Source: Bacteroidales bacterium (GTDB taxonomy: Bacteria; Bacteroidota; Bacteroidia; Bacteroidales; UBA932). From it: 49,418 nucleotides of DNA. The position numbers and the translations under genes were made by a program. Shown piece by piece: positions 32,975 through 41,252 of the stretch. How positions within the stretch are numbered: the first letter of the stretch is position 1; each line of letters begins with the position of its first letter. The notes beneath the pieces are model-generated. The model had not been told where the DNA came from. It searched no databases and saw only the letters and a program-made list of their open reading frames with translations. Location: contig JAQXKS010000067.1 of assembly GCA_029010575.1 (NCBI GenBank), positions 1-49,418 of the forward strand, read 5' to 3'.

Positions 32975-33367
32975 ATGGGTGCAAAATCTATTATCAGACT
33001 CAGAATGAGCTCACATGATGCTCATTATGGTGGAAATCTCGTTGATGGTGCAAGGATGCTCCAGCTCTTTGGTGATGTTGCTACAGAGCTGCTTATTATC
33101 AACGACGGAGACGAAGGACTCTTCAAGGCATATGACAATGTTGAATTCATGGCTCCTGTATTTGCAGGCGACTATATCGAAGCTGAGGGCGAAATCGTAT
33201 CTGTTGGAAATACATCCAGAAAGATGGTGTTTGAAGCACGCAAGGTAATCGCTCCCCGTACAGATATCTCTGATTCTGCTGCAGATGTTCTTGCTGAACC
33301 TGTGGTTGTATGCCGTGCCAGCGGTACTTGCGTAGTCCCTAAAAAATGTCAGAGAAAAGGAGAATAA
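32975..33367 (+). CDS. kal: 3-aminobutyryl-CoA ammonia-lyase
   Basis: Kal removes ammonia from L-3-aminobutyryl-CoA to give crotonyl-CoA. The 130 residues match the small hotdog-fold family, with [25 protein letters not shown] early, [18 protein letters not shown], and [18 protein letters not shown]. The C-terminal end is rich in Lys and Cys ([10 protein letters not shown]). The order kal-kce-kdd-kamA is the standard one in lysine fermenters, so context strongly supports the call. Gaps of 9 and 6 bases join it to its neighbours. Confidence 0.93.
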
Positions 33368-33373
33368 TTCGCT

Positions 33374-34201
33374 ATGGACAAACTTATTATCACAGCCGCT
33401 ATCTGCGGCGCCGAGGTGACAAAAGAACAGAACCCCGCAGTCCCTTACACAGTAGAAGAGATTGTAAGAGAGGCAAAATCTGCAGTTGATGCTGGGGCTG
33501 CAATAGTTCACCTTCATGTAAGGGAAGATGATGGTACTCCCACTCAGAGTAAAGCACGCTTCAAAGAGTGTATTGATGCTATCTACAAGGAGTGTCCTGA
33601 CGTAATTATCATCCCCTCTACAGGTGGTGCTGTCGGAATGACTGCTGAAGAACGTCTTCAGCCTACCGAGCTTTATCCCGAAATGGCTACTTTAGATTGC
33701 GGTACATGTAATTTCGGTGATGATGTGTTCGAAAATACAATGCCTATGATGAGGGCTTTCGGAAAGAGAATGCTTGAAAACGACATCAAGCCTGAATACG
33801 AGTGCTTTGAAATGGGCCATCTCGATACAGTCCTCAATATGGCACGTAAAGGTCAGGTGCCCGGTGCCCCCATGCAGTTCAATTTTGTTCTCGGTGTTCC
33901 AGGATGTTCTCCCGCAACAGTCCAGAACCTTGCATGGATGGTAAATGCGATTCCCGCAGGAAGTACCTGGACAGCTACAGGAATCGGCAGAAACGCTTTC
34001 ACACTTGCAGCAGCTGCAATCGTTATGGGTGGTAACGTCCGTGTAGGTTTCGAAGATAACCTCTATCTCGAAAGGGGTGTCCTTGCAAAATCAAACGGAG
34101 AGCTTGTAGCTAAAGTTGTCCGTCTTGCAAAAGAATTGGGCAGAGAGGTTGCAACTTCTGCCCAAGCAAGAGAAATCCTGAACCTCAAACCAAGAAAATA
34201 A
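33374..34201 (+). CDS. kce: 3-keto-5-aminohexanoate cleavage enzyme (BKACE family)
   Basis: Kce condenses acetyl-CoA with 5-amino-3-oxohexanoate and releases acetoacetate and 3-aminobutyryl-CoA. The 275 residues form the zinc TIM-barrel of the BKACE/DUF849 family. The zinc ligands His 46 and His 48 are in AAIVHLHVRED; a conserved Glu near the end is in VGFEDNLYLERG (Glu 227). PSTGGAVGMTAEERLQP and NFVLGVPGCSPATVQNL are also typical. It lies 6 bases after kal and 29 before kdd, the largest gap in the operon. Confidence 0.95.
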   Translation: MDKLIITAAICGAEVTKEQNPAVPYTVEEIVREAKSAVDAGAAIVHLHVREDDGTPTQSKARFKECIDAIYKECPDVIIIPSTGGAVGMTAEERLQPTELYPEMATLDCGTCNFGDDVFENTMPMMRAFGKRMLENDIKPEYECFEMGHLDTVLNMARKGQVPGAPMQFNFVLGVPGCSPATVQNLAWMVNAIPAGSTWTATGIGRNAFTLAAAAIVMGGNVRVGFEDNLYLERGVLAKSNGELVAKVVRLAKELGREVATSAQAREILNLKPRK

Positions 34202-34230: not shown

Positions 34231-35277
34231 ATGGCACAGAAAAAAGGCAGTAAATATGGCGTACACAGAGTGATCGAACCTAAAGGAGTTCTTCCTCAGC
34301 CTGCAAACAAAATAGACAACAACATGGATGAGATCTATGACAACGAAATTCTCATCGATGTACAGACACTTAATATCGACTCAGCATCTTTTACCGACAT
34401 TTCGGCACGCGCAAACGGTGATCCTGAACAGATCAAGAAGATCATGTTTGAAATAGTTGAAAAACAGGGTAAACACCGTAACCCTTGGACAGGTTCAGGT
34501 GGAATGCTTCTCGGTACTGTTGAAAAGATTGGAGATGCTCTCAAAGGCAAAATTGATCTTAAGGAAGGTGACAAGATAGCAACTCTCGTATCTCTCTCAC
34601 TTACTCCTCTTCGTATCGATGAAATCCTCGAAATCCGCGCTGATGTCGATCAGGTGGATATTAAAGGTAAGGCAATCCTCTTTGAAAGTGGTATCTATGC
34701 AAAGATTCCTTCAGACCTTCCTGAAAAGCTTGCACTTTCTGCTCTTGACGTGGCAGGTGCTCCCGCACAGACAGCAAAACTCGTTAAGCCCGGAGACACA
34801 GTTCTCATTATCGGAGCCGGTGGAAAATCAGGTATGCTTTGCTGCTACGAAGCTAAGAAACGCGCTGGTGTAACAGGTAAGGTAATCGGTCTGTGCCACA
34901 GCGAAAGAAGTACCAAACGTATGCAGGAACTCGGTTTTTGTGATTATGTATTCTCTGCAGATGCTACACAGCCTGTTCCCGTTCTCGAAAAGATTGAAGA
35001 ACTTACCAATGGACAGATGTGCGATGTAACCATCAACAACGTTAATATTCCCGACACTGAAATGACTTCTATCCTCTGTACCAAGAATACAGGTGTCGTT
35101 TACTTCTTCTCTATGGCTACCAGTTTCACAAAGGCAGCTTTAGGTGCAGAAGGTGTGGGCAGTGACGTTACAATGATTGTAGGAAATGGATATACTAAGG
35201 GTCACGCCGAAATAACACTCCAGGAACTCAGAGAGTGTGAAGCTCTAAGAAAAATCTTTACCGAACTCTACGCTTAA
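34231..35277 (+). CDS. kdd: L-erythro-3,5-diaminohexanoate dehydrogenase
   Basis: Kdd oxidatively deaminates 3,5-diaminohexanoate to 5-amino-3-oxohexanoate, producing reduced pyridine nucleotide and ammonia. The 348 residues match known Kdd. The Rossmann region is VLIIGAGGKSGMLCCYEAKK (about residues 190-209), followed by VIGLCHSERSTKRMQELGF. The N-terminal part holds NPWTGSGGMLLGTVEKIG and GDKIATLVSLSLTPLRID. The SER stretch after beta-2 leaves NAD versus NADP preference open. It lies 12 bases before kamA. Confidence 0.94.
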   Translation: MAQKKGSKYGVHRVIEPKGVLPQPANKIDNNMDEIYDNEILIDVQTLNIDSASFTDISARANGDPEQIKKIMFEIVEKQGKHRNPWTGSGGMLLGTVEKIGDALKGKIDLKEGDKIATLVSLSLTPLRIDEILEIRADVDQVDIKGKAILFESGIYAKIPSDLPEKLALSALDVAGAPAQTAKLVKPGDTVLIIGAGGKSGMLCCYEAKKRAGVTGKVIGLCHSERSTKRMQELGFCDYVFSADATQPVPVLEKIEELTNGQMCDVTINNVNIPDTEMTSILCTKNTGVVYFFSMATSFTKAALGAEGVGSDVTMIVGNGYTKGHAEITLQELRECEALRKIFTELYA

Positions 35278-35289
35278 TACCACATTTAT

Positions 35290-36540
35290 ATGGTAGATAT
35301 TTCAAGAAGACACATATTGTTCCCGGAAGTTACCGATGAACAGTGGAATGATTGGAAATGGCAGGTAAGGAACAGAATAGAGACTCTTGACCAGCTCAAG
35401 AAATATATATCATTGACTCCTGAAGAGGAAGAGGGTGTAAAAAAGACCCTCTCCACTCTCAGGATGGCAATCACTCCTTATTATCTCTCTCTGATTGATC
35501 CTGATGATCCTAATTGTCCTATCAGGAAGCAGGCCATTCCTACAGGAGCTGAAACACATCAGTCTGCTGCAGACCTCTTGGACCCTCTCCATGAAGATGA
35601 GGATTCACCTACACCGGGACTAACACACCGTTATCCGGATAGGGTACTGATGCTTATCACTGATATGTGTTCTATGTATTGCAGACATTGTACCCGTAGA
35701 AGATTTGCAGGTCAGAAAGACTGTGAATCTCCTCAAGATAGGATTGAAAAGTGCATTGAATATGTAGAACGCACCCCTCAGGTCAGAGATGTTCTTCTCT
35801 CAGGTGGTGATGCACTTATGGTCAGTGATGAGAAACTGGAATACATCATCAAGAGATTAAGGGCGATACCTCACGTAGAGATCATCCGTATAGGCAGCCG
35901 TACTCCTGTTGTATGTCCTCAGCGTATTACTGAGAATCTTGTCAACATGCTGAAGAAGTACCATCCTATATGGCTCAACACACACTTTAACCACCCCAAG
36001 GAGGTTACTCCTACTTCTGCTGCTGCATGTGCACGTCTTGCTGATGCCGGTATTCCTTTGGGTAACCAGTCAGTTCTCCTTCGTGGTGTTAACGACTGTG
36101 TGAATGTCATGAAGCGTCTGGTTCACGAACTTGTGAAGATGAGGGTAAGACCTTATTACATCTACCAGTGTGACTTATCTATGGGACTTGAACATTTCCG
36201 TACTCCTGTTTCAAAGGGTATAGAAATTATCGAAGGTCTCAGAGGTCATACTTCAGGATATGCTGTTCCGACATTTGTTGTAGATGCTCCAGGCGGAGGT
36301 GGTAAGACACCTGTAATGCCTCAGTATGTGATCTCCCAGTCGCCTGGAAAGGTAATTCTCAGGAATTTCGAAGGAGTCATAACTACCTATACAGAACCTT
36401 CTGACTATAAGAATGAATGTCATTGTGAAGATTGCAGAAGGAATGAAAAGGTAGAGGGTGTATCTTCACTTTTGAAGGGCCAGAGATTGTCGATTGAGCC
36501 TAAGGTGCTCTATCGTCATGAAAGGCATGTCAAAAAGTAA
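35290..36540 (+). CDS. kamA: L-lysine 2,3-aminomutase (radical SAM, PLP)
   Basis: KamA converts L-lysine to L-beta-lysine, the first step of the pathway. The 416 residues match the clostridial enzyme. The radical-SAM cluster motif is DMCSMYCRHCTRRRFA (Cys 127, 131, 134). The PLP-binding Lys is Lys 339 in DAPGGGGKTPVMPQY. Asp 295 (QCDLSMG) and Asp 332 (VVDAPGG) correspond to the substrate-amine contacts. A C-terminal CHCEDC cluster matches the zinc/dimer region. The cluster needs anaerobic conditions. It lies 14 bases before the first ATG of the next gene. Confidence 0.96.
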   Translation: MVDISRRHILFPEVTDEQWNDWKWQVRNRIETLDQLKKYISLTPEEEEGVKKTLSTLRMAITPYYLSLIDPDDPNCPIRKQAIPTGAETHQSAADLLDPLHEDEDSPTPGLTHRYPDRVLMLITDMCSMYCRHCTRRRFAGQKDCESPQDRIEKCIEYVERTPQVRDVLLSGGDALMVSDEKLEYIIKRLRAIPHVEIIRIGSRTPVVCPQRITENLVNMLKKYHPIWLNTHFNHPKEVTPTSAAACARLADAGIPLGNQSVLLRGVNDCVNVMKRLVHELVKMRVRPYYIYQCDLSMGLEHFRTPVSKGIEIIEGLRGHTSGYAVPTFVVDAPGGGGKTPVMPQYVISQSPGKVILRNFEGVITTYTEPSDYKNECHCEDCRRNEKVEGVSSLLKGQRLSIEPKVLYRHERHVKK

Positions 36541-36554
36541 ATCATCTTTTGGTG

Positions 36555-37514
36555 ATGCCATTTATCCAAGAGATATTGAAATACGGATCACTCTCAGTCG
36601 TAGGTCTTGAAAAGAATTGCGGCAAGACAGAGTGTCTTAATTACATATTAAACCGCTTACCTAAGGAGGGACGCAAAATTTGCGTCACCTCCATAGGTAT
36701 AGATGGTGAAAGGATAGATCAGGTTACTTCGACAAGCAAACCTGAAATCACTCTTTCAGAAGGGCTGCTTTTTTCTACATCTGAAAAACATTACAGAATT
36801 AGAAACCTTCTGTCTGAGGTGGTTGGCATTTCTGAAGAGACTACTTCGCTTGGCAGGGTAATCACTTCAAAGGTAATAAGAGAGGGGAAAGTGATTCTTT
36901 CAGGTCCCTCTTCGTCTGCATCATTGATAAGGTGGATGAAGGAGGTCAAGGCTTTGGGAAGTGATCTTGTGATTGTAGATGGAGCTCTCTCAAGACTCAG
37001 CAGTGCATCCCCGGCGGTTACAGAGTCAATGATTCTTGCCACAGGTGCTGCACTCTCGTCCAACATTCCCACGCTGGTGGCCAAAACGGCTTTCGTTGTC
37101 CAGATGATAGGACTGGATTTGATGGATCCTACTATTTCCCGTCATGAGACAGTAACTATTTCATCAATGGCTGCAGAGTTTGAGCCCACTCCAGAATGTC
37201 GCAGGGTGATGATTTCGGGAGCTCTGACAGACAGAATGTTGAATAGGATTGCCCAGGAAAAGAACCTTGGAACATTTGAGGTGGTGGTAAGGGACTTTAC
37301 CAAACTATTCATTACACCACGAACTTATGGTGCTTTTGTAAAACTTGGCGGCAGATTACGTGTAGAGAGCAGGAGCAAACTCGTTGCAGTGTGTGTTAAC
37401 CCTCTCTCTCCGAGCGGTTTCAGACTCGATTCTGACACTCTTTGCAGGGAACTCTCTGATAGGATTTCGCTACCGGTTTACGATATAGTAAAGAACAGAT
37501 ACATAACAAATTAA
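36555..37514 (+). CDS. kamB: KamB-like P-loop protein of the lysine operon, function unproven
   Basis: The protein has about 319 residues and no signal. Start: the ATG at 36555 is preferred to the TTG at 36549. A phosphate-binding loop lies at residues 17-25 (GLEKNCGKT); with five residues between the glycines it is one longer than the canonical GxxxxGKT. VILSGPSSSASLIRW, DLVIVDGALSRLSSASP and ILATGAALSSNI follow, suggesting a Walker-B-like Asp. Position between kamA and a MutS-like gene matches the gene I recall as kamB in other lysine fermentation clusters, whose function is not established. The gene overlaps kamC by one base (TAATG), a sign of coupled synthesis. I infer a partner ATPase of KamC for care of the aminomutases. 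Confidence 0.7.
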   Translation: MPFIQEILKYGSLSVVGLEKNCGKTECLNYILNRLPKEGRKICVTSIGIDGERIDQVTSTSKPEITLSEGLLFSTSEKHYRIRNLLSEVVGISEETTSLGRVITSKVIREGKVILSGPSSSASLIRWMKEVKALGSDLVIVDGALSRLSSASPAVTESMILATGAALSSNIPTLVAKTAFVVQMIGLDLMDPTISRHETVTISSMAAEFEPTPECRRVMISGALTDRMLNRIAQEKNLGTFEVVVRDFTKLFITPRTYGAFVKLGGRLRVESRSKLVAVCVNPLSPSGFRLDSDTLCRELSDRISLPVYDIVKNRYITN

Positions 37515-38890
37515 TGAGACTCAGAGATATTATTGATTCACCTTGTGGAATAAGGTATATGCTGGAGGAACTGCCGCTTTCATGTAGTTTCTCGTATACC
37601 TATCTGCTCAATACTGAACTTGCATCTGATGCAGGAACGGTAAGGGATCGTTATTCTCTCGTCAGACACTATTTTAGAATTCTGGAACGCAGCAACAGCA
37701 ATGCTCTCATTAATTTGAGGCACAGATTCTTTACTTTGAAGGATATAGGCAGGACCATCGACAGAATCGATTCAGATGATACTGTGGATGATATAGAGCT
37801 TTACGAGGTCAAACATCTCATTCTGACAGGTATCCATATACATGATATTCTGGTAGAGTGTCGGATATCCCCGGATGGCATTGATAAAGAGAAGTTGCAT
37901 GAAGCTCTCCATATACTCGATCCTCAAGATGAGATGGTCGATGCTTTTTATGTTTATGATTCTTATTCGGCTGAACTGACGCGTATTAGGGAAGCCATTT
38001 CAAAGCAGAGCTCAGTAGAATCTCTGGAGCTCCTCAAGCAAGAGGAACTGATTGAACAGATAAAAATCAGAGAGGAGATCTGCAGTAGGCTCAGGCCATT
38101 CTGCTCTCATCTGAGGTCTTTGCTGATTACACTTATTGAGTGTGATATAGCTATTGCAAAAGGAGAGCAGATTACATCATTGGGGTTGGTTATTCCAGAG
38201 GTTACCAGAGGTGGAATGTGTGAATTTACCTCCCTTTTCCATCCTCTGGTCAGGTCTTCGCTTGAAGCTATTGGTAAGGAATTTACTCCAGTCGACATCT
38301 CTTTCAGTGACAGACCTGTCGTTCTTACCGGAGCCAACATGGGTGGCAAGACTGTCGTCCTGAAAATGGTGGCACTCTCATATTACCTCATGCTCATGGG
38401 AATGGGTGTTCCCGCAGCCAAGGCGGTTATCCCTTTCCGCAGTTCTCTGTTTTTTGTATGCGGTGACTCGCAGGATATAGAAAGTGGTCTCTCTTCATTT
38501 GCAGCTGAGATGAAGAGCATTGACATGGCGATTAAAGCCTCTGAAGATGAAAGCAGGTGTACCGACATGGTAGTTCTGGTTGATGAACCGGCCAGAAGTA
38601 CCAATCCGCTTGAGGGAACAGCCCTTGTGGAGGCACTTGTATCCATTTTCTCAGCAAGACATGTCAATACCTTGATAACCACGCACTACAATATCAAGGC
38701 TGAAGGATGCGACCTCTATAGGGTAAGGGGGTTTGAAAATGGAAAAATGAATTACAGACTCTTTAGAACAGATCTGTCGGAGGCTCCCAGAGAGGCACTC
38801 AGAGTAGCAGCCATGATGGGAATTTCGCCATATTGGATTCAAATGGCAGAAGAGCAGCTAAAATCTGCCGAAGGTTTGAAAAATAATTGA
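37514..38890 (+). CDS. kamC: KamC-like MutS-family ATPase, lacking the mismatch-binding domain
   Basis: The protein has 458 residues and resembles the lever/clamp and ATPase parts of MutS. Walker A is LTGANMGGKTVVLK (residues 271-284). GDSQDIESGLSSFAAEMKSI matches the MutS signature (318-337). Walker B is VVLVDEPARSTNPLEGTAL (353-371), and the H-loop is LITTHYNIKA. No N-terminal mismatch-recognition domain with Phe-x-Glu is present; the first 200 residues are helical. The gene is in a lysine catabolic operon, so DNA repair is unlikely. It matches the gene recalled as kamC in related clusters. A chaperone or reactivase role for lysine 5,6-aminomutase is inference. Confidence 0.8.
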   Translation: MRLRDIIDSPCGIRYMLEELPLSCSFSYTYLLNTELASDAGTVRDRYSLVRHYFRILERSNSNALINLRHRFFTLKDIGRTIDRIDSDDTVDDIELYEVKHLILTGIHIHDILVECRISPDGIDKEKLHEALHILDPQDEMVDAFYVYDSYSAELTRIREAISKQSSVESLELLKQEELIEQIKIREEICSRLRPFCSHLRSLLITLIECDIAIAKGEQITSLGLVIPEVTRGGMCEFTSLFHPLVRSSLEAIGKEFTPVDISFSDRPVVLTGANMGGKTVVLKMVALSYYLMLMGMGVPAAKAVIPFRSSLFFVCGDSQDIESGLSSFAAEMKSIDMAIKASEDESRCTDMVVLVDEPARSTNPLEGTALVEALVSIFSARHVNTLITTHYNIKAEGCDLYRVRGFENGKMNYRLFRTDLSEAPREALRVAAMMGISPYWIQMAEEQLKSAEGLKNN

Positions 38891-38908: not shown

Positions 38909-40462
38909 ATGAATAGTAAGTTAGGATTGGATTCCGCCAAAATCGCCAAGGCGAGGGCTCTTGCAGCCAGTATCGCTAAAAATGTCCAGGACTTTGCAGA
39001 TGGATACACAACTGTAGCAGTTGAAAGGACTATCTGCCGTCTTTTGGGTATTGACGGCATTGATGCCAATGGCGTTCCCCTTCCAAATGTTGTAGTTGAC
39101 GAGCTTAAGGCTCAGGGGTTGCTCAACGAAGGGGTTATTTATTATATGGGTGCAGCTGTCGCAGCTACTGGCCTTACACCTAATCAAATAGCTGAGAATA
39201 TTGCCGATGGTAAATTTGAAATATCCAAGGTACATCCTATCTCTCCTGAAGAATCTGAAAAGGCTCTGCAGCCTTTTATCACAGCTTCAATAGAACACAT
39301 CCGTGCCAGAAGAGCACGTAGAGAGGAGTATCTCAGAACTATCGGTGAGGGCCCTAAGCCCTACCTATATGTAATCGTTGCAACAGGTAACATCTATGAA
39401 GATGTCGTTCAGGCTGAGGCTGCTGCACGTCAGGGTGCTGATATCATCGCTGTAATCAGAACCACTGGCCAGTCGCTTCTCGACTATGTTCCCTATGGAG
39501 CCACCACAGAGGGCTTCGGAGGTACTTTTGCCACACAGGAAAACTTTAGAATCATGAGGGCCGCTCTTGACAAGGTCGGTGAAGAGGTAGGACGCTACAT
39601 AAGACTTTGCAACTATTGTTCAGGTCTGTGTATGCCGGAAATTGCAGTCATGGGTGCTCTTGAGGGTCTTGATGTCATGCTCAACGATGCTCTCTACGGA
39701 ATCCTTTTCAGGGACATTAATATGCAGAGAACCTTGATAGACCAGTATTTCTCCAGGGTTATCAATGGCTTTGCAGGTGTTATAATCAATACAGGTGAAG
39801 ACAACTATCTGACTACTGCAGATGCTGTGGAGGCTGCTCATACAGTACTTGCCTCAGATATCATTAATGAACAGCTCGCCATTCTTGCCGGACTTCCAGA
39901 AGAGCAGATGGGTCTTGGACATGCCTTCGAGATGGATCCCATGCTCGAAAACGGCTTCTTATACGAGCTTGCACAGGCCCAGATGATCCGTGAAATATTC
40001 CCCAAAGCTCCTCTGAAGTATATGCCTCCTACAAAGTTCATGACGGGTAACATCTTCCGTGGACATATACAGGATGCATTGTTCAATATCATTGGAATAT
40101 GGACTAATCAGGGTCTCCAACTTTTGGGTATGCCTACAGAAGCCATTCACACGCCTTTTATGTCTGACCGATTCCTCTCGATTGAGAATGCCAAATATAT
40201 CTTCAATAACATGAAGAACATCGGCGACGAGGTCGAGTTCAAAGAAGGCGGTATCATCAGGGAAAGAGCCCACAAAGTACTCAATGACGCAACAGATCTT
40301 CTCGAAAGAATGAATGAGGAGGGTCTCTTTAGTGCACTTGAGAAGGGTATCTTCGGAGATGTTAAACGTCCACGCAACGGTGGAAAGGGTCTGGATGGAG
40401 TGGTCGCAAAAGGAAAGAACTACTCTAATCCGTTTATTAATTTAATGAAAGGAGTAAAATAA
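38909..40462 (+). CDS. kamD: Lysine 5,6-aminomutase, alpha (large) subunit
   Basis: KamD and KamE together use adenosylcobalamin and PLP to move the terminal amino group of beta-lysine, giving 3,5-diaminohexanoate. The 517 residues match the alpha subunit, a TIM barrel that holds PLP and substrate. Recognisable segments are YLYVIVATGNIYEDVVQAEAAA, ADIIAVIRTTGQSLLDYVPYG, TTEGFGGTFATQENFRIMR, and EMDPMLENGFLYELAQAQMI. The stop is one base before the kamE start, consistent with a fixed subunit ratio. It follows the kamC-like gene by 18 bases. Confidence 0.96.
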   Translation: MNSKLGLDSAKIAKARALAASIAKNVQDFADGYTTVAVERTICRLLGIDGIDANGVPLPNVVVDELKAQGLLNEGVIYYMGAAVAATGLTPNQIAENIADGKFEISKVHPISPEESEKALQPFITASIEHIRARRARREEYLRTIGEGPKPYLYVIVATGNIYEDVVQAEAAARQGADIIAVIRTTGQSLLDYVPYGATTEGFGGTFATQENFRIMRAALDKVGEEVGRYIRLCNYCSGLCMPEIAVMGALEGLDVMLNDALYGILFRDINMQRTLIDQYFSRVINGFAGVIINTGEDNYLTTADAVEAAHTVLASDIINEQLAILAGLPEEQMGLGHAFEMDPMLENGFLYELAQAQMIREIFPKAPLKYMPPTKFMTGNIFRGHIQDALFNIIGIWTNQGLQLLGMPTEAIHTPFMSDRFLSIENAKYIFNNMKNIGDEVEFKEGGIIRERAHKVLNDATDLLERMNEEGLFSALEKGIFGDVKRPRNGGKGLDGVVAKGKNYSNPFINLMKGVK

Positions 40463-40463
40463 T

Positions 40464-41252
40464 ATGAGCGGCGGATTATATTCGATGGAAGGTAAGGATT
40501 TCGACAAGAATCTTGACCTCAAAGCAATAAAGCCTTATGGCGATACAATGAATGATGGTAAGGTACAGCTTAGCTTTACTCTTCCCGTCGAAAAGGGTGA
40601 TGAAGCGATAGAAGCTGCCAAACAGCTTATCAAGGCAATGGGACTCGATAATCCTCAGGTGGTTTTTTATGAAGAGCTCACACCAGGATTCACTTTCTTT
40701 AACTGTTACGGCTCATGCAAACATACGGTTGACTATACCTCTATCCATGTTCCAAAGGTTGAATCAAATGTTATGGATATGCATGAAACTGATGAATATA
40801 TCAAGGAGCATATTGGCAGAAAACTTGTTATCGTTGGAGCATCTACAGGTACAGACGCCCATACCGTTGGTATCGACGCCATTATGAATATGAAGGGATA
40901 CGCTGGTCACTACGGTCTTGAAAGATATGACATGATTGATGCATATAACCTTGGAAGCCAGGTTCCCAATGAAGAGTTTATTGCCAAGGGTATCGAGCTC
41001 AATGCAGATGCTCTCATCGTTTCACAGACTGTGACCCAGAAGGATGTCCACATCAAGAACCTTACGGAACTTGTCGAAATGATGGAAGCAGAGGGTTTAA
41101 GAGACAAGATGATACTCGTATGTGGAGGTGCCCGCATTACACATGAGCTTGCAAAAGAGCTGGGATACGATGCCGGTTTCGGCATGAACACCTACGCAGA
41201 CAATGTTGCATCTTTCATAGCTGAAGAATTTGTTCGTAGAAATAATAAATAA
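40464..41252 (+). CDS. kamE: Lysine 5,6-aminomutase, beta (cobalamin-binding) subunit
   Basis: The 262-residue beta chain has a Rossmann B12 domain. The base-off cobalamin motif DAHTVG places the ligand at His 133. Lys 144 in MNMKGYAGHYGLERYD is the residue that forms the internal aldimine with PLP in studied enzymes; both numbers agree with those I recall for the homologues. ALIVSQTVTQKDVHIKN and MILVCGGARITHELAKELG complete the B12 fold. It lies one base after kamD and 11 before atoA. Confidence 0.96.
   Translation: MSGGLYSMEGKDFDKNLDLKAIKPYGDTMNDGKVQLSFTLPVEKGDEAIEAAKQLIKAMGLDNPQVVFYEELTPGFTFFNCYGSCKHTVDYTSIHVPKVESNVMDMHETDEYIKEHIGRKLVIVGASTGTDAHTVGIDAIMNMKGYAGHYGLERYDMIDAYNLGSQVPNEEFIAKGIELNADALIVSQTVTQKDVHIKNLTELVEMMEAEGLRDKMILVCGGARITHELAKELGYDAGFGMNTYADNVASFIAEEFVRRNNK

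Follow-up and report, generated by a model that had tools for sequence, protein, structure and literature searches.

The overlapping genes kamB and kamC, found in a stretch of 49,418 nucleotides that is here called the window (contig JAQXKS010000067.1 of the Bacteroidales bacterium assembly GCA_029010575.1), probably encode a nucleotide-driven maintenance machinery for lysine 5,6-aminomutase, KamDE, an enzyme dependent on adenosylcobalamin (AdoCbl) and pyridoxal 5′-phosphate (PLP). This reading is based on gene order, family membership, co-occurrence, the missing DNA-binding parts of KamC, predicted folds and an observation that is new here, namely that relatives of KamB are encoded in a conserved operon next to an unnamed B12-binding fused mutase. 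An initial annotation of the window had proposed the ATP-driven maintenance of KamDE, and the direction of that proposal is favoured by the NCBIfam names, by the co-occurrence and by the KamB relatives found with another B12 mutase; beyond these, we infer that KamB and KamC form a complex, hydrolyze ATP and exchange cobalamin, and that in this way they would reactivate KamDE. The features concerned are the following:

36555–37514, plus strand: kamB, 319 aa, NF052386 at 301.5 bits (cut-off 210), a P-loop protein of predicted SIMIBI fold
36603–36629, plus strand: P-loop of KamB, GLEKNCGKT, residues 17–25, pattern GxxKNxGKT
37512–37516, plus strand: TAATG, stop of kamB and start of kamC, a one-base overlap
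37514–38890, plus strand: kamC, 458 aa, a MutS-core ATPase, NF052383 at 345.7 bits (cut-off 300)
38909–40462, plus strand: kamD, NF052384 at 920.3 bits (cut-off 600)
40464–41252, plus strand: kamE, which with KamD is the proposed client, NF052385 at 416.1 bits (cut-off 280)
35290–36540, plus strand: kamA, lysine 2,3-aminomutase (context), TIGR03820 at 630.3 bits (cut-off 525.4)
32975–33367, 33374–34201 and 34231–35277, plus strand: kal, kce and kdd (context), NF052388, NF052387 and NF052381, all above cut-off

The window proteins are members, without any difference, of two NCBIfam equivalog families, exceeding the cut-off of each: NF052386, "lysine 5,6-aminomutase reactivase subunit KamB", and NF052383, "lysine 5,6-aminomutase reactivase ATPase KamC". 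Thus the reactivase label is already in the databases for both, and the name alone proves no function. The overlap of the two genes at TAATG and their position between kamA and kamDE, as first described, are borne out by full open reading frames and by these identities; KamB starts at the ATG at 36555 (a TTG at 36549 could add two residues N-terminally), and KamC starts at the ATG at 37514, with its stop ending at 38890. The presence of the pair is not due to chance, since the reading frames are complete and in frame and the same placement recurs in three phyla. Acetoanaerobium noterae and Fusobacterium vincentii share the order kamA-kamB-kamC-kamD; sequence identity there is about 30% for KamB and about 69% for KamD.

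A KamD profile search of GTDB gave at least 572 confirmed candidates, of which the best 80, the nearest relatives, belong to Bacteroidales and related Bacteroidota. Both kamB and kamC lie on the fetched DNA at 42 of these 80 loci, 41 of them in the order kamA-kamB-kamC-kamD; three loci have a kamC match without kamB, two of them by kamD at a contig edge and the third (L091) where the fetched stretch ends, 9 kb away from kamD; 35 have neither gene, and 27 of these include 3 kb or more of sequence upstream of kamD. Whole-genome searches covered 34 of the 35 pair-less loci (L067 was left out) and four pair-bearing controls, with profiles made from the window protein and 34 (KamB) or 36 (KamC) of 42 collected sequences. 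Since weak matches from MutS and MutS2 occur in 198 of 198 phylum genomes and 12 of 14 control genomes, KamC was counted only where it exceeded its cut-off. Among these 38 KamD genomes, KamB exceeded its cut-off in 35 (31 of the 34 without the pair at the kamD locus) and KamC, at an E limit of 1e-60, in 36 (32 of the 34); in 10 of the 31 genomes that have both, the two are on separate contigs, and in seven of the 34 pair-less loci less than 3 kb upstream of kamD is available, so that linkage is possible there. As a separate observation, in many gut and rumen Bacteroidales (L050, L052, L062–L065 and others) kamD, usually with kamE, is detached from the rest of the lysine cluster; kamB and kamC then lie at other sites in the genome, in some cases at two separate ones.

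In an even draw of 80 genomes of the same order, KamD was found in seven and KamB in the identical seven (Fisher p = 3e-10, relatedness ignored), kamB and kamD being on different contigs in four of these. At an E limit of 1e-72, six of the seven had KamC above its cut-off and the remaining 73 genomes had no such match; in the seventh KamD genome, G202, kamC is truncated by the contig end (L133). Of 198 genomes drawn from the phylum, the one from which the window comes is the sole genome to exceed the cut-off of the KamD, KamB or KamC model. A regular lack of the pair in KamDE genomes, which had been named beforehand as evidence against the proposal, was not encountered: none of the seven in the order sample lacked it, counting the truncated KamC, and in the 38-genome sample three were without KamB and two without KamC over cut-off.

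The second setting of KamB came from the phylum sample, in which two genomes, G093 and G014, have sub-cut-off relatives of KamB and no KamD. In both, the KamB relative is directly 3′ of a gene that encodes about 600 aa; in G093 its product carries an N-terminal B12-binding domain (PF02310, 40.7 bits, cut-off 32.1) followed by a barrel that is weakly KamD-like. Among 197 genomes of the same class, 14 have the KamB-like protein, and every one of these also has the fused mutase (p = 1.6e-20, relatedness ignored). One further genome, G339, brings the total for the mutase to 15, and there its match is cut by the contig edge. The two genes are at most 150 bases apart in 12 of the 14 and 2.8 kb apart in G425, whereas G348 has a fragment of each, on two contigs. 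KamD was present in none of the 15 fused-mutase genomes, in a search that held no positive control of its own, the same model finding KamD in seven of the 80 order genomes. The initial annotation had counted kamB without kamDE as contrary evidence; KamB-like genes without KamD do exist, yet they accompany a different cobalamin mutase, and the idea is thereby refined, not refuted.

The neighbourhoods of 11 of the 14 were fetched, and in all 11 the mutase and the KamB-like gene are found together with an upstream PLP enzyme, a DUF6917 gene and a diaminopimelate-dehydrogenase-like gene, in the order gntR, diaminopimelate-dehydrogenase-like, DUF6917, PLP enzyme, fused mutase, kamB-like. The GntR-type regulator is present in 10 of the 11, L178 being cut off there, and a corA-like gene is interposed in L036 and L178. 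In L036 (8576–17788, from G093; the others are L037 and L170–L178) the diaminopimelate-dehydrogenase-like gene matches TIGR01921 above cut-off, and the PLP enzyme is SelA/SepSecS-like. The 11 fetched stretches were also searched for kamA, kdd, kce, kal and kamC and gave no match, and "DUF6917" appears in no paper of the searched literature. This operon may mirror the gene row of ornithine fermentation and encode an undescribed route of amino-acid breakdown.

The B12 part of the fused mutase matches KamE (hhalign, 97.3%; phmmer in 11 of 11 loci), but the barrel resembles KamD only weakly (hhalign, 39%, E 3e-4; phmmer in 10 of 11 loci; KamD chains at E 1.7e-4), and PF09043 is matched on part of the protein at E 0.033 and is unlisted at E ≤ 0.1 for the full protein, which speaks against a plain fusion of KamD and KamE. 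At the position of the KamE lysine that binds PLP, 11 residues after the cobalt-binding histidine, the fused mutase has leucine (10 of 10 rows, by simple offset). A lysine five residues after the cobalt histidine is kept in the same 10 rows.

Since what the two settings of KamB share is a cobalamin-binding mutase, the client is probably a B12 mutase, and the KamB family tracks B12 mutases and not lysine fermentation alone. The absence of KamC from the fused-mutase setting implies that KamB can probably act without it. A KamB-like protein that adjoins the fused mutase in a genome without KamD (G346:C1:928999–929991, L140) reaches 210.4 bits against the NF052386 cut-off of 210; for this protein the name of a "lysine 5,6-aminomutase" reactivase is too narrow, and the current database name would mislabel such partners of the fused mutase, which point to a second client and possibly to a new pathway.

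The loop of KamB was read correctly in the initial annotation as GLEKNCGKT at residues 17–25, and its description as a nonstandard oddity was not sustained: G17, K20, N21, G23, K24 and T25 are invariant in 25 of 25 KamB and KamB-like rows, and the same G, K, N, G, K and T in 35 of 35 rows of the KamB alignment, so that the loop is a family trait. Its spacing is presumably shared by the loops of dethiobiotin synthetases. The predicted model of KamB (predicted local distance difference test, pLDDT, 89.1) would place the protein in the SIMIBI class of P-loop folds, to which MeaB and IcmF belong, and in the model it has the fold of the G domain of MeaB, MMAA and IcmF. Those proteins are chaperones of acyl-CoA B12 mutases. 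KamB differs from them in having no sequence-family match to them, in its GxxKNxGKT loop, in its partner KamC, and in having structural matches of equal Z to signal recognition particle (SRP) GTPases and to dethiobiotin synthetase. In NCBIfam, NF052386 is the sole match of KamB at E ≤ 0.01, with none to the MeaB/MMAA (ArgK) family, and in Pfam a sub-threshold HypF_C is its sole match at E ≤ 1. A resemblance to cyclic 2,3-diphosphoglycerate synthetase was discarded, the weak match (E 0.045) falling to E 0.2 with a profile.

The profile search that had been proposed as a check identifies KamC, for its part, as a MutS-core ATPase. As previously read, KamC keeps the ATPase motifs of MutS (GANMGGKT, DIESGLSSF, VDEPARSTNP) without the mismatch-recognition domain; it has the Walker A, Walker B and signature elements of the domain V ATPase of MutS and MutS2 (Pfam MutS_V, 70.7 bits, cut-off 30.2). 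In the domain terms of MutS, it aligns from the core domain onward, the mismatch-recognition and connector domains (I and II) being absent; about 65 residues are also missing at the position of the clamp (IV), and the protein stops after the ATPase domain, without the C-terminal SMR (nuclease) tail of MutS2. The predicted model (pLDDT 89.8) has the fold of the MutS2/MutS core, 427 of the 458 residues being aligned with residues 1–519 of MutS2, and is compatible with the retention as well as with the loss of part of the smaller tip of MutS2. In a tree that also includes MutS, KamC and MutS2 form separate clades (support 99/96 and 100/99). The identification of KamC as a MutS2 of repair or of the ribosome was rejected, given the missing SMR tail and MutS clamp insert and the separate clade.

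Lysine 5,6-aminomutase self-inactivates in turnover, and an auxiliary protein of C. sticklandii studied by the Stadtman group, E2, of about 80 kDa, was isolated with AdoCbl synthetase activity and moved label from ATP to the mutase, E1 (PMC3958899); E2 reactivates E1, perhaps via exchange of the bound cobalamin (2022 review, PMC9081730). The passages of these two reviews that describe E2 give it no gene name, and KamB and KamC are candidate genes for it. In figure 2 of a 2011 paper on lysine fermentation, the cluster genes include "HP" and "mutS" (PMC3149608). Like the pair, E2 is linked to ATP and auxiliary to KamDE (PMC3958899, PMC9081730). The summed mass of KamB and KamC, about 87 kDa in the window, is roughly compatible with that of E2; against the identity, it is about 94 kDa in A. 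noterae (1:1, an upper value, with KamC taken from its first ATG).

Several observations weigh against the maintenance of KamDE by the pair. The lack of an established function, as initially stated, holds in so far as the searched literature, where most subscription papers are missing, yielded no experiment on either protein; the statement failed in that reactivase names had already been assigned. OraS, of ornithine aminomutase, has been reported to restore the ATP regulation of KamDE (PMC3958899, PMC9081730), and thus ATP effects on KamDE need not stem from KamB and KamC. Ornithine 4,5-aminomutase is related to KamDE, but neither KamB nor KamC is present at its two examined loci (A. noterae and G156; L131 and L132), and at both a GlmL-related gene, Or-4 (NF040744), follows OraE (L131:6393–9945, L132:9956–13605). 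Related mutases therefore have different neighbour genes, which speaks against reading the pair as general aminomutase equipment. Reactivases of the GlmL and diol dehydratase types are regarded as actin-like ATPases. Or-4, like KamB and KamC, adjoins the gene of an AdoCbl aminomutase; it belongs to another protein family, matching GlmL models, whereas neither KamB nor KamC has a GlmL- or DdrA-type match in NCBIfam or Pfam. In structure, no Foldseek match of the KamB model was found at E ≤ 0.001, and since its best structural matches, at equal Z, include SRP GTPases and dethiobiotin synthetase, the fold gives the class and not the function. Moreover, KamB was missed in G286, G287 and G300, and KamC in the first two, these genomes being of 1.8–2.0 Mb; co-occurrence would fit any role in the lysine pathway and therefore does not by itself name the client; and kamA adjoins kamB in three of the four scattered loci fetched (L133, L134 and L136; not L138) and in L039, an adjacency that hints at KamA.

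This last point leads to a different role, in which KamB and KamC would serve the assembly or regulation of the pathway at large, acting for instance on KamA or on PLP loading, with KamDE as one client among several. In L133, L134 and L136, where kamB adjoins kamA, kamD is on another contig or elsewhere, and in the phylum and order samples KamC above cut-off is confined to KamD genomes; however, all 11 fetched KamB-like stretches are devoid of kamA, kdd, kce and kal, each has a B12-binding mutase, and KamD is absent from those genomes, which makes the broader role rather improbable. Somewhat less improbable, while still unlikely, is that the pair makes or delivers AdoCbl for KamDE, by ATP:corrinoid adenosylation or loading, instead of removing the damaged cofactor. 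The dAdoCbl synthetase activity of the E2 fraction and its passage of the ATP label to E1 (PMC3958899) would agree with this, as would the intact P-loop of KamB and its clustering with B12 mutases; against it, neither protein has an adenosyltransferase family match in NCBIfam (E ≤ 0.01) or Pfam (E ≤ 1), and the activity in the published passages is that of a protein fraction with no named gene product. That KamC should be a MutS2-like DNA or ribosome factor present in the operon by chance, with KamB as an unrelated passenger, is very improbable indeed, as the recognition domains, clamp insert and SMR tail are missing, the clade stands apart from both MutS2 and MutS (99/96), the source genome has separate MutS2-like (L002) and MutS-like (L003) proteins, and KamC is kept with KamD even where unlinked.

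If we accept the maintenance of KamDE, substrate-induced suicide inactivation would leave a damaged cobalamin on KamE; KamB, as a SIMIBI-class NTPase, would dock at the B12 (Rossmann) domain of KamE and could gate the swap of the damaged cobalamin for AdoCbl, and KamC, with its lever arms kept and no MutS clamp insert, could give the larger ATP-driven movement that opens the domains of KamDE. This division of labour, in which KamB works on the B12 domain while KamC provides the motor, is doubtful, and is held more tentatively than the maintenance role itself. A little less doubtful, although short of probable, is the wider proposition that KamB founds a separate class of SIMIBI NTPase chaperones of cobalamin mutases, serving two enzymes or more, among them lysine 5,6-aminomutase, with KamC, and the fused mutase, the readings of the operon and of E2 possibly holding along with it; our confidence in it was lowered by the OraS reports. 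Were the maintenance role true, KamC would be a MutS that has left DNA repair and become a motor for remodelling proteins; for a repair protein, to lose its DNA parts and work on an enzyme would be an unusual shift in function.

The genes around the pair form a same-strand row that begins with an AtoD-like CoA-transferase subunit, followed by kal, kce, kdd, kamA, kamB, kamC, kamD and kamE, and continues with a second CoA-transferase subunit, crotonase-like, 3-hydroxybutyryl-CoA dehydrogenase-like and acyl-CoA dehydrogenase-like genes and two electron-transfer flavoprotein subunits; those from kal to kamE were identified by NCBIfam and the remainder named by inspection. This row is that of lysine-to-butyrate fermentation. 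In KamE, His133 and Lys144 fall on the positions published for the binding of cobalt and PLP (roles as given in the relevant passage of PMC3958899).

In the scattered genomes, kamA is directly 5′ of kamB at L134:7017–9349, L136:7979–10335 and L133:1072–3407, and in L136 it is split over three overlapping reading frames, which indicates a broken gene or assembly errors. Finally, two PLSDB "plasmids", NZ_CP154629.1 (2.6 Mb) and NZ_CP084075.1 (2.1 Mb), both with almost no annotation, resemble whole chromosomes of A. noterae and F. vincentii, respectively.
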